DNA of 39,711 nt from a virus: the IMG/VR virus record IMGVR_UViG_3300044637_000142, positions 1 through 39,711 of that record, one strand, 5' to 3'. The notes beneath the pieces were generated by a model. That model was not told the DNA's origin and searched no databases. It saw nothing but the letters and a program-made list of their open reading frames with translations. A program made the position numbers and the translations under genes. Each line of letters opens with the position of its first letter. Within the stretch, counting starts at the first letter, position 1. This document shows, piece by piece, positions 23,495 through 32,458 of this stretch.

Positions 23495-23510
23495 GTTTAC
23501 CTCAGTAAAC
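23495..23510. repeat. GTTTAC palindrome after the RNA polymerase gene
   Basis: The sequence is GTTTAC-CTCA-GTAAAC with perfect arms, ten bases after the RNA polymerase stop codon. Confidence 0.85.
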
Positions 23511-23520
23511 CTTCAGATGC

Positions 23521-25914
23521 TTAAGAGAAGTAGTAGTCACTCTTAAGTACATCTTGGATATCCAAGGTTCCCTTAGATGGAACAGGGGGCAAGTCTACAG
23601 ACTTCGGCAGCAATGTCGAGATCTCGGAGGCGAAATTTTCCAAAATTTCTGAAGAAAACATGTTCACAGTCGCCTGTCGGACGCATGAAGACATCATTCC
23701 GGCGTCTGCGGCTAGGACTGCGATCTCATCATGGGTCGGTCGAATAGAAGTGACATCATTCGCAATAGCCATGTTCACAGTAAACCCAAGTAGACCTCCG
23801 AGTCCGTCGAGCCCGTGAACGAAGTTAGGTGCGATCGCATTCTTCGTCTTCCGCTGATCAAGCTTGCCGTTAGCAACCCGAAGCTGATGCTGTCGAATCT
23901 TCCGTCCGATCGCCGTCTTCACGTTGATTGCGTCAGTCTGCTCGTAGCGCATGTCGATCAAGAAGCCGTTCGGAGTCCACCACATCGGAGCAACCTTGTT
24001 GTCCATGCAGATGTCCGCGATTTCCTGAAGCCACTCCATGCAGACCCTAGCCGACTTGACGACTTCCCCGATAGACTCCCAGATCACCGTAGCCAAGAAT
24101 GCACAAGGCTTGTACGTCTCATCGTGAAACGGATTCGACTTCCCATTCTTCTTGATCTGCTCGTAGAACCACTCCGTCGTGTAGCTACGGCAGCTGTAGA
24201 ACGTGCTTCCGTAGGGCAGAGTCATCGTCTGCCGCTTCGTAGTCTTTCGGTCGATGCCGAACGCAAGCCACTTGGAAGCGTATGGATCCGTGGACTCTGC
24301 AAGCTTGCGCTTGACAACTTCCGCAACCTGACCGTAGATGTCGTTCGGTGTGTCGCGGGGCAAGCAGTTCGTCGCCATGCCGCCGACAGGATCACGAAGC
24401 AGGAGGCTGTAGATCTGCAACCCCTGAGTCGTAGCGTCCATCGACACCGGGAGATGACTCTCGTACCCGTAGCCGACCTTTCGGAACTGCCCCCACTCCA
24501 TGCAAGCAGCGAGGAACTGAAGCGGCTTGTCTGCACTGCGCCAAGTCTTGACGTCGAGCGGGTGCTCACCGATCGCACGGATCAGCTCGTCGTTGTCGCT
24601 GACCCACTTGATGCGCTCAGCGAACGACAGCTTGTCCTGACCGAACGTGTTCGCGACGTGGATCGCAAGCCACGCCGCATCGCTGTCATCACGGATCGGC
24701 TTGCCCTGATCGAACACGAGCAAGCTCTTCGAGATGTCCGGCCCCTGCGGCTGCAAGTAGTACGGAATCGGGTACTCACGGCCACGGAAGTCGAGCTGAC
24801 GCGGATACCAGATCCGAGTGCTCTTGAACTTCTCAGCGAGGTACAGGATCTTCGAGATCTGAAGACGCTTCGACTGAAGCCGCTCGTTCTCAAAGTGAGC
24901 ACGAGCCGCGTCCTTACGCCACTGACGACGAGCTTCGAGATTCGTGTCGATGTCCAGAGGCTTCGTAGGAAGCAGGACGTCGCCGTTAGTTGGCATCCCC
25001 TCGACTTCGATGCCGTGCTCCCAACAGTGACCAATGACATCAAGGATCGGCTGATTGATCCTGTACGCCGTCCGCTGCAAAGCGTTCAGTGCGCTGTAGA
25101 CGTTCGGCATCCCGACAGAGTCGAGGGTCGCCATGTACGTCTTCGAGCGGTGCTTGATGAGCGGGCGATTGCGATGGAAGATCTTGCCGTAGCCCCCGTT
25201 GACGGGCTGCTTCCAATCAATCGGCGGCTCGACCATCGGCAGATAGACGGGCTTCAGGATCTCGCCCGACTTGTGAGCGTTCTTGAGCCAGTGCATCAAG
25301 TCGTCAGTCGGCCTGACGAGAGTCACGGACTTACCGAGAATGTTCGTCCGCGTGATGATGTCGATGATCCCCGTCGATTCCCGCATCAGCTCAATGCAGA
25401 CGAGGCCGACCTGAACCATGTCCTTCTTGTCCCACGCCGGAGGAATGACGCCTACGGAACGAGCGGAGTTCTTCAGGAACTTCGACTTGCGGTTGTAGCT
25501 AGCACCGCTGCTCAGGACGCGGTTCGCAGCTGCCCAGAGAGGCGGATGCTCGTCCTTGATGAACCGGAACTGGACTTCGTCCTGAAGCAGCCGAGCGACT
25601 TGCGTAGCCGTGCTGACGATCTTCCGATTCTGGCTGATGCAGTCCAACACGGCCTGAGCCGTGATCGCCGCTATCATCGCCGGGGGGAGCTGCGTGATGT
25701 ACTCGTATGCCCGATGGCGACGACCGGGCTTCTTCTCGGCGTTGAGGATCCACTGAGAGATCGACTGCTCAAGCTTGCCGACACACTGGCTGAGCAGATA
25801 CTGCCCGACGTCCGTCGTGCTTTCAAGGCCGAGTTCCTTAGCCTTGTTGACGCGGTTCCAGTAGCGGCTCTTTCCTAGAGCCTCCATCTCGTCATTGACT
25901 TTGCGCTGATCCAT
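23521..25914 (-). CDS. Single-subunit RNA polymerase (T7 gp1-like), 797 aa
   Basis: This is the phage polymerase that transcribes middle and late genes. Motif A reads MDATTQGLQIYSLLLRD near residue 493 with the catalytic Asp. Motif B reads RKTTKRQTMTLPYGS near residue 560 with the expected Lys, Arg, Tyr and Gly. Motif C reads PTHDEIAVLAADA near residue 729 with the second catalytic Asp, preceded by PNFVHGLDG. The length is slightly below T7 (883 aa), mostly at the N-terminus. GGAGG lies four bases before the ATG. The gene has its own upstream region with a terminator, a GTTTAC palindrome and a TATAAT. Confidence 0.97.
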   Translation of the reverse strand: MDQRKVNDEMEALGKSRYWNRVNKAKELGLESTTDVGQYLLSQCVGKLEQSISQWILNAEKKPGRRHRAYEYITQLPPAMIAAITAQAVLDCISQNRKIVSTATQVARLLQDEVQFRFIKDEHPPLWAAANRVLSSGASYNRKSKFLKNSARSVGVIPPAWDKKDMVQVGLVCIELMRESTGIIDIITRTNILGKSVTLVRPTDDLMHWLKNAHKSGEILKPVYLPMVEPPIDWKQPVNGGYGKIFHRNRPLIKHRSKTYMATLDSVGMPNVYSALNALQRTAYRINQPILDVIGHCWEHGIEVEGMPTNGDVLLPTKPLDIDTNLEARRQWRKDAARAHFENERLQSKRLQISKILYLAEKFKSTRIWYPRQLDFRGREYPIPYYLQPQGPDISKSLLVFDQGKPIRDDSDAAWLAIHVANTFGQDKLSFAERIKWVSDNDELIRAIGEHPLDVKTWRSADKPLQFLAACMEWGQFRKVGYGYESHLPVSMDATTQGLQIYSLLLRDPVGGMATNCLPRDTPNDIYGQVAEVVKRKLAESTDPYASKWLAFGIDRKTTKRQTMTLPYGSTFYSCRSYTTEWFYEQIKKNGKSNPFHDETYKPCAFLATVIWESIGEVVKSARVCMEWLQEIADICMDNKVAPMWWTPNGFLIDMRYEQTDAINVKTAIGRKIRQHQLRVANGKLDQRKTKNAIAPNFVHGLDGLGGLLGFTVNMAIANDVTSIRPTHDEIAVLAADAGMMSSCVRQATVNMFSSEILENFASEISTLLPKSVDLPPVPSKGTLDIQDVLKSDYYFS

Positions 25915-25932
25915 AGATCCTCCGTTTAACCG

Positions 25933-25961
25933 ATTATACGGTTTACCCGAGTAAACAAAAG
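25933..25961 (-). promoter_or_regulatory. Possible promoter of the RNA polymerase gene with a palindrome in its spacer
   Basis: On the minus strand a perfect TATAAT (25938 down to 25933) lies 19 bases before the ATG. The hexamer 17 bases upstream is CTTTTG, a poor -35. The GTTTAC palindrome at 25941-25956 fills the spacer almost completely, as an operator might. Promoter activity is uncertain because of the weak -35. Confidence 0.4.
25941..25956. repeat. GTTTAC palindrome upstream of the RNA polymerase gene
   Basis: The sequence is GTTTAC-CCGA-GTAAAC with perfect arms, between the terminator of the previous unit and the RNA polymerase start. Confidence 0.85.
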
Positions 25962-25995
25962 AAAAGCCCTCGCCATACCGAAGTATGGCAAGGGC
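25957..25995 (-). terminator. Strong terminator after the DUF932-like gene
   Basis: The minus strand has a 13-bp stem (GCCCTTGCCATAC with GTATGGCGAGGGC) capped by a TTCG tetraloop and followed by TTTTCTTTTG. It would end early transcription before the RNA polymerase gene and so supports a separate promoter for that gene. Confidence 0.9.
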
Positions 25996-26011
25996 CGCTC
26001 ACAGGAGGAAA

Positions 26012-26036
26012 CCGAGTTCAGTATAACTGAACCCGG
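26012..26036. repeat. Second hairpin downstream of the DUF932-like gene
   Basis: GTTCAGT-ATA-ACTGAAC (26016-26032) is a perfect palindrome, extended by CCG/CGG across one mismatch. It lies between the DUF932 stop and the terminator. There is no T-run, so it may protect the mRNA 3' end or pause the polymerase. Confidence 0.55.
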
Positions 26037-31630: not shown

Positions 31631-31632
31631 GA

Positions 31633-31648
31633 GTTTACCGGAGTAAAC
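31633..31648. repeat. GTTTAC palindrome directly after a stop codon
   Basis: The sense strand reads TAA then GTTTAC-TCCG-GTAAAC, between the stop of the first early gene and its terminator. Confidence 0.85.
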
Positions 31649-32311
31649 TTACTCGCAGAGATCCGAGGCGGCGCGGAGCGCGTCGCGGAGCATCTCGCGA
31701 TCCTCGGCGCGGCAATCCTTGCGCGTGAGCACCGCCGCGACCATGTCGCCGATCGCGTCCGCAAGCCCGCGCGCAGTCATAACAACGGACTTTCCGGACT
31801 TCGGCGCATCGTCCGATTCGCCGTCCGAATCCTTCGCGGACTTGCCGGACTTGCCGGACTTGACCGCCGATTCGACGAGCGTATCGACATCGGCGCGGGA
31901 CATGCCGGAGAGATAGCCGGACTCCGTTTCGGCTTCGGACTTCCCGTAGGCGGACTGTAGAGCGCGGGCATCGTATTCCGATGCGACGAGTCCCGGCTTC
32001 CCGATGCGCTCCGCAGCATCGATCCAACGTCCGAACGTGACGTACTGCGAGAATCGGCCCTTCGAAACGTTCCCGGCACATTCGTCGATGAACCACGCGA
32101 ATGCCCCCTTGCCGGAGTCGCCCGCGTAACTGCGGACATCCTTGCGAATCGTCGCGGCGAACATGGCAACGGACACGGCGCGGATGGCAGCACTTCCCGA
32201 TGCCCATGAATCCCGGACGGACTTGGCGAATCCTTCCATCGGGAGCGCGGCAAGGCTATCGGCGAACGTGGTGCGGGCGGACTTGGCGGACTTCGTTGCG
32301 GACTTCGTCAT
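31649..32311 (-). CDS. First early gene, Ser/Lys-rich hypothetical protein, 220 aa
   Basis: The N-terminus is Lys, Ser and Ala-rich (MTKSATKSAKSARTTFADSL). Residues about 145-180 are low-complexity Lys/Ser/Gly/Asp (VKSGKSGKSAKDSDGE), coded by repeats of CGGACTT on the plus strand. The middle is helical, with a plausible folded domain around FAWFIDECAGNVSKGRFSQY. No family was recognised. It is the first gene behind P5, so it is probably the earliest made protein. Its ribosome-binding site (GGAAA) lacks the palindrome, unlike the genes that follow. Confidence 0.75.
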   Translation of the reverse strand: MTKSATKSAKSARTTFADSLAALPMEGFAKSVRDSWASGSAAIRAVSVAMFAATIRKDVRSYAGDSGKGAFAWFIDECAGNVSKGRFSQYVTFGRWIDAAERIGKPGLVASEYDARALQSAYGKSEAETESGYLSGMSRADVDTLVESAVKSGKSGKSAKDSDGESDDAPKSGKSVVMTARGLADAIGDMVAAVLTRKDCRAEDREMLRDALRAASDLCE

Positions 32312-32399
32312 TGCGGTTTCCTACTCTCGTCGTCCCGTCCTTCGCGTCCCGCGTTCCCATCGGGAACCGTCCGGGCGTTCGGGATCGGGCGACACGGGA

Positions 32400-32428
32400 A
32401 TACTAAACTAATCCGGGCCGCCCGTCAA
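32400..32428 (-). promoter_or_regulatory. Host sigma-70 type early promoter P5
   Basis: The minus strand reads TTGACG (32428-32423), 17 bases, TAGTAT (32405-32400). A leader hairpin GTTCCC-GAT-GGGAAC follows further downstream. It drives the first early gene. Confidence 0.85.
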
Positions 32429-32442
32429 CCGATTAAAGCGAA

Positions 32443-32458
32443 GTTTACTCAATTAAAC
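32443..32458. repeat. Degenerate GTTTAC palindrome upstream of P5
   Basis: The sequence is GTTTAC-TCAA-TTAAAC, one arm mismatch, about 15 bases upstream of the P5 -35 hexamer. Confidence 0.5.

Follow-up and report, generated by a model that had tools for sequence, protein, structure and literature searches.

What does a short palindrome do that recurs at nearly every border between the early genes of a T7-like phage? The phage is represented by IMG/VR virus record IMGVR_UViG_3300044637_000142, of which positions 1 to 39,711 (39,711 bases, hereafter the window, and its phage W) were analysed; the palindrome is GTTTAC-N4-GTAAAC. The main genes of W are all on the minus strand and its gene set is T7-like: a single-subunit RNA polymerase gene (23521-25914) and T7-type structural and replication genes, including those for DNA polymerase, primase/helicase, head and portal proteins, place it among the T7-like phages (Autographiviridae). 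Its closest named relatives are 37% identical in the RNA polymerase; the terminase is 70 to 91% identical to that of unnamed relatives and ∼62% at best to that of named phages. We propose that the palindromes are probably DNA operators of one dimeric DNA-binding protein, which is most likely encoded by the first early gene (31649-32311, minus strand, 220 amino acids), and that they would serve to shut off early transcription.

The window holds 14 perfect copies of the palindrome, against none in each of 100 dinucleotide shuffles; allowing up to two mismatches raises the count to 17, against a shuffle mean of 0.5. The original prediction, which placed perfect copies at 23495, 25941, 27542, 29253 and 31633 and a near copy at 26907, was correct in all of these coordinates, and the excess over chance that it claimed is borne out by the shuffles. 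Thirteen of the 14 perfect copies fall inside the early region (23.4-32.5 kb; 9 kb, or 23% of the window; binomial P ∼5e-8). This region is 15% non-coding, and all 13 copies are nevertheless intergenic, a result that no random placement equalled in 20,000 trials. A perfect or one-mismatch copy is found at 11 of the 13 early gene junctions, the exceptions being 27843/27859 and 28668/28686. Many near-identical short sites, far above chance, are what dispersed phage operator arrays present. The early region also carries five host-type promoter-like sequences on the minus strand, one of them a perfect TTGACA-17-TATAAT (the scan gave eight matches in all, three of which are not counted among the five, against 3.5 in shuffles). 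Four of these promoters have the next palindrome in their leader; for the fifth, which belongs to the first early gene, a near copy stands upstream of the -35 element.

The copies differ in their centres. In eight of the 14 the centre on the coding strand is AGGA, which is the Shine-Dalgarno sequence, with the ATG two bases past the palindrome; the other six have other centres. The eight, all on the minus strand, are at 31373-31388 and 30356-30371 (each in the leader of a host-type promoter), 29033-29048 (in the leader of the perfect promoter), 28563-28578 (upstream of the GP88-family gene), 31263-31278, 30895-30910, 29891-29906 and 29660-29675. Two copies are each preceded by a stop codon and followed by a terminator: 31633-31648 adjoins the stop at 31649, and 29253-29268 overlaps its stop by one base. 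The RNA polymerase gene has a copy on each side, one (25941-25956) following a terminator and placed 26 bases ahead of the ATG, the other (23495-23510) 10 bases beyond the stop. The leader of the acidic repeat gene (26923-27522) holds the copy at 27542-27557, downstream of a promoter-like sequence. Near copies with one mismatch are found directly past the stop of the acidic repeat gene (26907-26922; perfect in relatives G002 and G007), within the DUF932 gene (at 26582), and 14 bp upstream of the -35 element of the first early promoter (32443-32458), where it would be an operator of the candidate regulator itself; this promoter-like sequence is TTGACG-17-TAGTAT (32400-32428, minus strand).

The only perfect copy outside the early region (13561-13576) is inside the head-assembly (scaffold) gene. 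It is retained in all five phages examined, with variation at its free positions, and it uses codons that are rare in W: GTA (4% of valine codons) and TTT (16% of phenylalanine codons). In the 30 codons upstream, the third base is common to all five phages in 11. A 17-base version of the palindrome, GTTTACGCCGAGTAAAC, is present at 17698-17714 inside the DNA polymerase gene; G006 has GTTTACGCCTAGTAAAC, perhaps at another place.

Relatives were IMG/VR contigs picked by RNA polymerase identity (53 to 100%), with others picked by an exact palindrome site. The array is present in close relatives, with 18 copies in G002, 16 in G007, 11 in G001 and 7 in the partial contig G003. Sites at shared junctions flank the RNA polymerase gene and the coiled-coil gene, precede the GP88-family gene, and follow the ortholog of 29268-29657 and the first gene. 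At orthologous junctions of these close relatives the arms are invariant and the centres drift; past the RNA polymerase gene, for example, the centres are TGAG, TAAT, TGAT and TACG. The copies before the RNA polymerase and DUF932 genes of G006 carry one mismatch. More distant relatives, with an RNA polymerase ∼55% identical, have altered motifs that are again palindromic and at similar places: GTWTACC-N2-GGTAWAC in G005 (10 copies), NTTTACC-N2-GGTAAAN in G013 (11 copies) and NTTTACA-N3-TGTAAAN in G010 (11 copies). Where a -10-like box was found within 60 bases ahead of a palindrome, it starts 42-54 nt before it, with one exception (34, in G003). No palindrome repeated more than two times was found in G011 (53% identical RNA polymerase) or in eight named T7-like phages, in a scan that required exact arms; such a scan would give only three copies even in G005, and a degenerate motif could escape it. 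A lone AGGA palindrome also turned up in 23 stretches of other contigs, mostly AT-rich and with one copy each, and these were taken as chance.

Is the palindrome recognised in DNA or in RNA? With AGGA as a loop, it could be a hairpin in early mRNA that offers the Shine-Dalgarno sequence, for a translational regulator to bind or a nuclease to cut. AGGA stands at the loop position in 8 of 14 copies in the window, 9 of 18 in G002 and 9 of 16 in G007; the loop length is 4-6 across a few copies; and the hairpin is predicted at -3.4 kcal/mol. That stem is weak, however, and one G005 site type, with a U-U opposition, folds at only -0.6 kcal/mol. Pairing is moreover not conserved: at the variable arm positions the two sides agree in 5 of 10, 5 of 11 and 7 of 11 cases, against 4.57, 4.45 and 6.44 expected from shuffled sides. 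The sides thus vary independently, so that it is half-sites that are conserved and not base pairing, as fits a dimeric DNA-binding protein. None of the 32 sites of G005, G013 and G010 holds a Shine-Dalgarno sequence, which in the contexts examined is separate and downstream of the palindrome; therefore the palindrome works without it, and the merger of the two belongs to the clade of W. In some phages the symmetry reaches the centre (GTTTACCATGGTAAAC, GTTTACCCGGGTAAAC; CATG, CCGG), a symmetry for which a hairpin loop has no use, and one AGGA copy of G002, with its G007 counterpart, lies past a stop codon and ahead of a terminator with no start. After the pairing test and the folding of nine site types, we consider an RNA signal unlikely as the main function, though an RNA effect could be secondary within the clade of W.

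The spacing of the half-sites also suits a DNA-binding protein. From centre to centre they are mostly 10 bp apart, as in W; the distance rises to 11 bp for G010 and for those copies of G015 that hold the Shine-Dalgarno sequence, and to 12 bp for three copies of G001. Ten to 11 bp is one turn of DNA, and half-sites one helical turn apart are as expected of two helix-turn-helix subunits bound to one DNA face. In G015 (L025) the Shine-Dalgarno copies have a 5-base centre (GTTTACTAGGAGTAAAC, four perfect), three other copies have the 4-base centre CCGG and one has AGGA.

Which protein would bind? The candidate is the product of the first early gene, a helix-turn-helix-like protein with an SKGRxSQ motif, and we take GTTTACNNNNGTAAAC, GTTTACAGGAGTAAAC and GTTTACTCGGGTAAAC as its predicted targets. 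Homologs were found in G001, G002, G004, G014 and G015, and by profile or alignment also in G005, G010 and G013; the gene is thus present in all six array phages scanned over the locus (W, G001, G002, G005, G010 and G013) and additionally in G004, G014 and G015. No homolog was found in G011 or in the eight named T7-like phages. In all eight phages read, a palindrome lies at the promoter or leader of this gene (in W the one-mismatch copy; in G013 and G010 further upstream of the promoter). Residues W73, R86, S88, Q89, A99 and E112 are invariant in eight of eight aligned sequences (one partial), and R86, S88 and Q89 belong to the SKGRxSQ stretch. Two structure models, built from four and eight sequences, have a mean predicted local distance difference test (pLDDT) score of 78 and 80. 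Residues 22-159 of the better model match ParB (Z score 5.3), KorB with its operator (4.9) and KorB alone (4.1) over 107-112 residues with root-mean-square deviations of 4.9-5.8; these are weak matches, with Z scores in a range that may reflect chance. Unrelated proteins are found near them in the fold comparisons, one of which is topped by RbcL-Raf1 (Z score 6.2).

Other searches with the candidate returned nothing that would name it. Foldseek gave no match at an E value of 0.001 among PDB or viral models; the sequence matched nothing in Pfam, NCBIfam or PDB sequences, and in particular showed no sequence similarity to ParB or KorB; no named relatives were found in phages or plasmids; and its pattern gave 25 stretches in genome_contigs, none confirmed. 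What points to this protein as the putative binder is mostly the palindrome at its promoter, together with the helix-turn-helix-like model.

Other genes are shared as well. Just upstream of the candidate regulator, at 32878-33252 (minus strand), lies a gene for a 124-amino-acid HExxH protein whose match to Peptidase_M78 (ImmA/IrrE-like) is below threshold. It is found in five of the six array phages compared (G001, G002, G005, G010 and G013; not in the partial contig G007) and was not found in G011 or in four named phages. ImmA-type proteases are known to destroy helix-turn-helix repressors. The DUF932 gene is also present in G011 (27%) and does not track the array.

Could the operators belong to a regulator encoded by the host and adopted by the phage? 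This is quite unlikely: the sites co-occur with a phage gene of DNA-binding type whose own promoter carries one of them, and the motif drifts among related phages. A role in DNA organisation, partition or entry through a ParB-like protein, with no control of transcription, is still less probable. The weak ParB/KorB-like fold and the conserved site within a late gene would be in keeping with such a role; however, the protein is short, no CTP (cytidine triphosphate)-binding part of ParB was recognised in it by library matches, and the sites cluster at early promoters, leaders and terminators.

The original prediction had also offered a different function, namely that genes bounded by identical palindromes could be exchanged as modules; the palindromes would then be recombination points between early genes. 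A copy at 11 of 13 junctions would suit such cassettes, as would the site found at the start of lineage-specific early genes (those of 28 and 69 amino acids in W, and of 68, 122 and 74 amino acids in G002). Segmentation of the alignment of the G002 and G007 early regions, however, gave five identity breakpoints that are no nearer to palindromes than are random positions (mean 128 versus 136 nt, p 0.49; with n = 5 the power is low). Measured from the ends of a near-identical block (99.9%, 2016-3614) and from the other steps in identity, the nearest site is 33 to 306 nt away. In G001 a gene for 122 amino acids stands between the genes for the 71-amino-acid and coiled-coil proteins, with a palindrome at its downstream junction and none upstream. 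Gene-content breakpoints are uninformative because 11 of 13 junctions carry a site anyway. Sites are also kept by genes that are not exchanged, downstream of the RNA polymerase gene and within a late gene, and in other phages the arms shift in concert, as expected of a binding site. Module exchange at the palindromes is therefore unsupported and highly improbable; in a weak form, genes may travel with their own operator. Other parts of the prediction fared better. The arms rather than the Shine-Dalgarno sequence are indeed what is conserved, both among the copies in W and across relatives, and the suggestion that one protein binds all sites gains indirect support from the invariant arms with drifting centres, the independent half-sites and the co-occurring gene of DNA-binding type with a site at its own promoter.

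In the operator reading, a dimer of the first early protein would occupy the two half-sites (GTTTAC) of each palindrome. Bound at its own promoter, the protein would limit its own synthesis (autoregulation); bound at host-type promoters, leaders and gene borders, it would turn off transcription of the early region by the host polymerase, either through a block to initiation or as a roadblock downstream of the start, with the last site immediately beyond the gene for the phage RNA polymerase. Within the clade of W, the operator would have merged with the Shine-Dalgarno sequence in tight junctions. Tyrosine integrase was found in none of nine records (some partial), and so a repressor of lysogeny is less likely than a lytic early switch. 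A more specific version is tentative and, as a whole, rather unlikely. There, the first protein of this integrase-less T7-like lineage would be a short ParB/KorB-fold binder that lacks the CTP part and sits on the palindromes at nearly every early border as a string of roadblocks confining host RNA polymerase; in one clade the operator would double as ribosome-binding site, the same letters perhaps acting on both DNA and mRNA, and the adjoining ImmA-like HExxH protein could relieve the block.

Several points weigh against the operator reading. G003 has no perfect copy past its RNA polymerase gene. The centre varies in length: G010 and the Shine-Dalgarno copies of G015 have 5 bp, and three copies of G001 have 6 bp. 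G005 has three looser GTAGAC copies that lie outside the independence test, two of which could form a U-G pair. The fold match to ParB/KorB is weak and no sequence library names the protein. The M78-like gene and a gene for a 74-amino-acid HNH protein track the array as well as the candidate does, and co-occurrence alone therefore cannot single out the regulator. Finally, the relatives include partial contigs and near-copies of each other, so that counts among them are not independent.

How does the array compare with known systems? The stoperators of cluster A mycobacteriophages sit in short intergenic gaps near starts and stops, and the early sites of W (13 of 13 intergenic) have the same placement. 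Stoperators serve one regulator of the phage through numerous short sites of nearly identical sequence, found at promoters and genome-wide; each is an asymmetric 13-mer bound by a monomer, and the phages are temperate (PMC9283540). The array of W is like these in its many near-identical short sites, with one regulator predicted. It is unlike them in being a symmetric 16-bp palindrome, mostly in the early region, in phages whose nine records yielded no tyrosine integrase; the asymmetric 13-bp site in one orientation is not what is seen.

Cluster K mycobacteriophages have start-associated sequences (SAS), an AGGAG-containing repeat just ahead of start codons with symmetric outer bases, and extended SAS (ESAS) inverted repeats, whose consensus differs by subcluster, whose departures do not support RNA pairing and which were judged likely protein sites (PMC3203893). 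The argument of those authors, as there given, is the same as ours for the present palindromes. The SAS is non-palindromic and one-directional (GGGATAGGAGCCC, at starts), with a separate inverted repeat, whereas in W one palindrome of different sequence does both and is also found at gene ends; a candidate binder is named here. The KorB/KorA operators of plasmid RK2 are palindromes for a global repressor and can be far from the promoter (PMC11790492). They share TTTA/TAAA-type half-sites with W, whose candidate protein has the weak fold match to the KorB DNA-binding domain; RK2 differs in being a plasmid system with a CTP-driven clamp and the partner KorA, and the phage protein has no visible CTP part or sequence similarity. 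The integrase-bearing T7-like phages LUZ100 and CRP-227 have an annotated MarR-type regulator, as seen in their records and in one paper (PMC10134795). They resemble W in that the early region of a T7-like genome encodes a DNA-binding regulator; this regulator is, however, of the MarR family and beside an integrase, and no palindrome repeated more than two times was found in them. In a literature search with subscription journals mostly outside its coverage, no account of such an array in T7-like phages was found. The comparison suggests that the array is of the dispersed phage operator kind (stoperators, ESAS) in a new form: symmetric, mostly early, T7-like and with a candidate binder.

Other repeats of the window were noted. 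Three promoter-plus-leader copies, 78-86% alike, lie on the minus strand at 29057-29120, 30387-30450 and 31403-31466, and their leaders contain a GAGGA-TCCTC hairpin that itself has a Shine-Dalgarno-like run; no known RNA families were found in the window. Just past the early region, at 23457-23478, is an inverted repeat (AGTGTAGT/ACTACACT), with a similar sequence at the same place in G002, G006, G007 and L028. A second copy, sought on the view that the repeat is a phage promoter, was not found in the window; the late-region repeats examined gave no clear phage promoter either. Ahead of the first early gene, three GGTTATCGG repeats are found at 32727-32803 (minus strand), possibly near the genome ends, and at the same place there are five in G002 and G014 and two in G013 and G015.

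In T7 itself, early genes are shut off through proteins that disable the host polymerase. If our reading is true, an operator array together with a DNA-binding protein of the phage's own would be a second, site-based route to early shut-off in the T7-like family, and the reading makes a direct prediction of the 16 bp that are bound and of the protein that binds them. Drifting alongside its candidate binder, the motif would then offer a natural series on the concerted change of specificity in a set of about a dozen operator sites, and an operator merged with the ribosome-binding site, as in one clade, would be a compact design.

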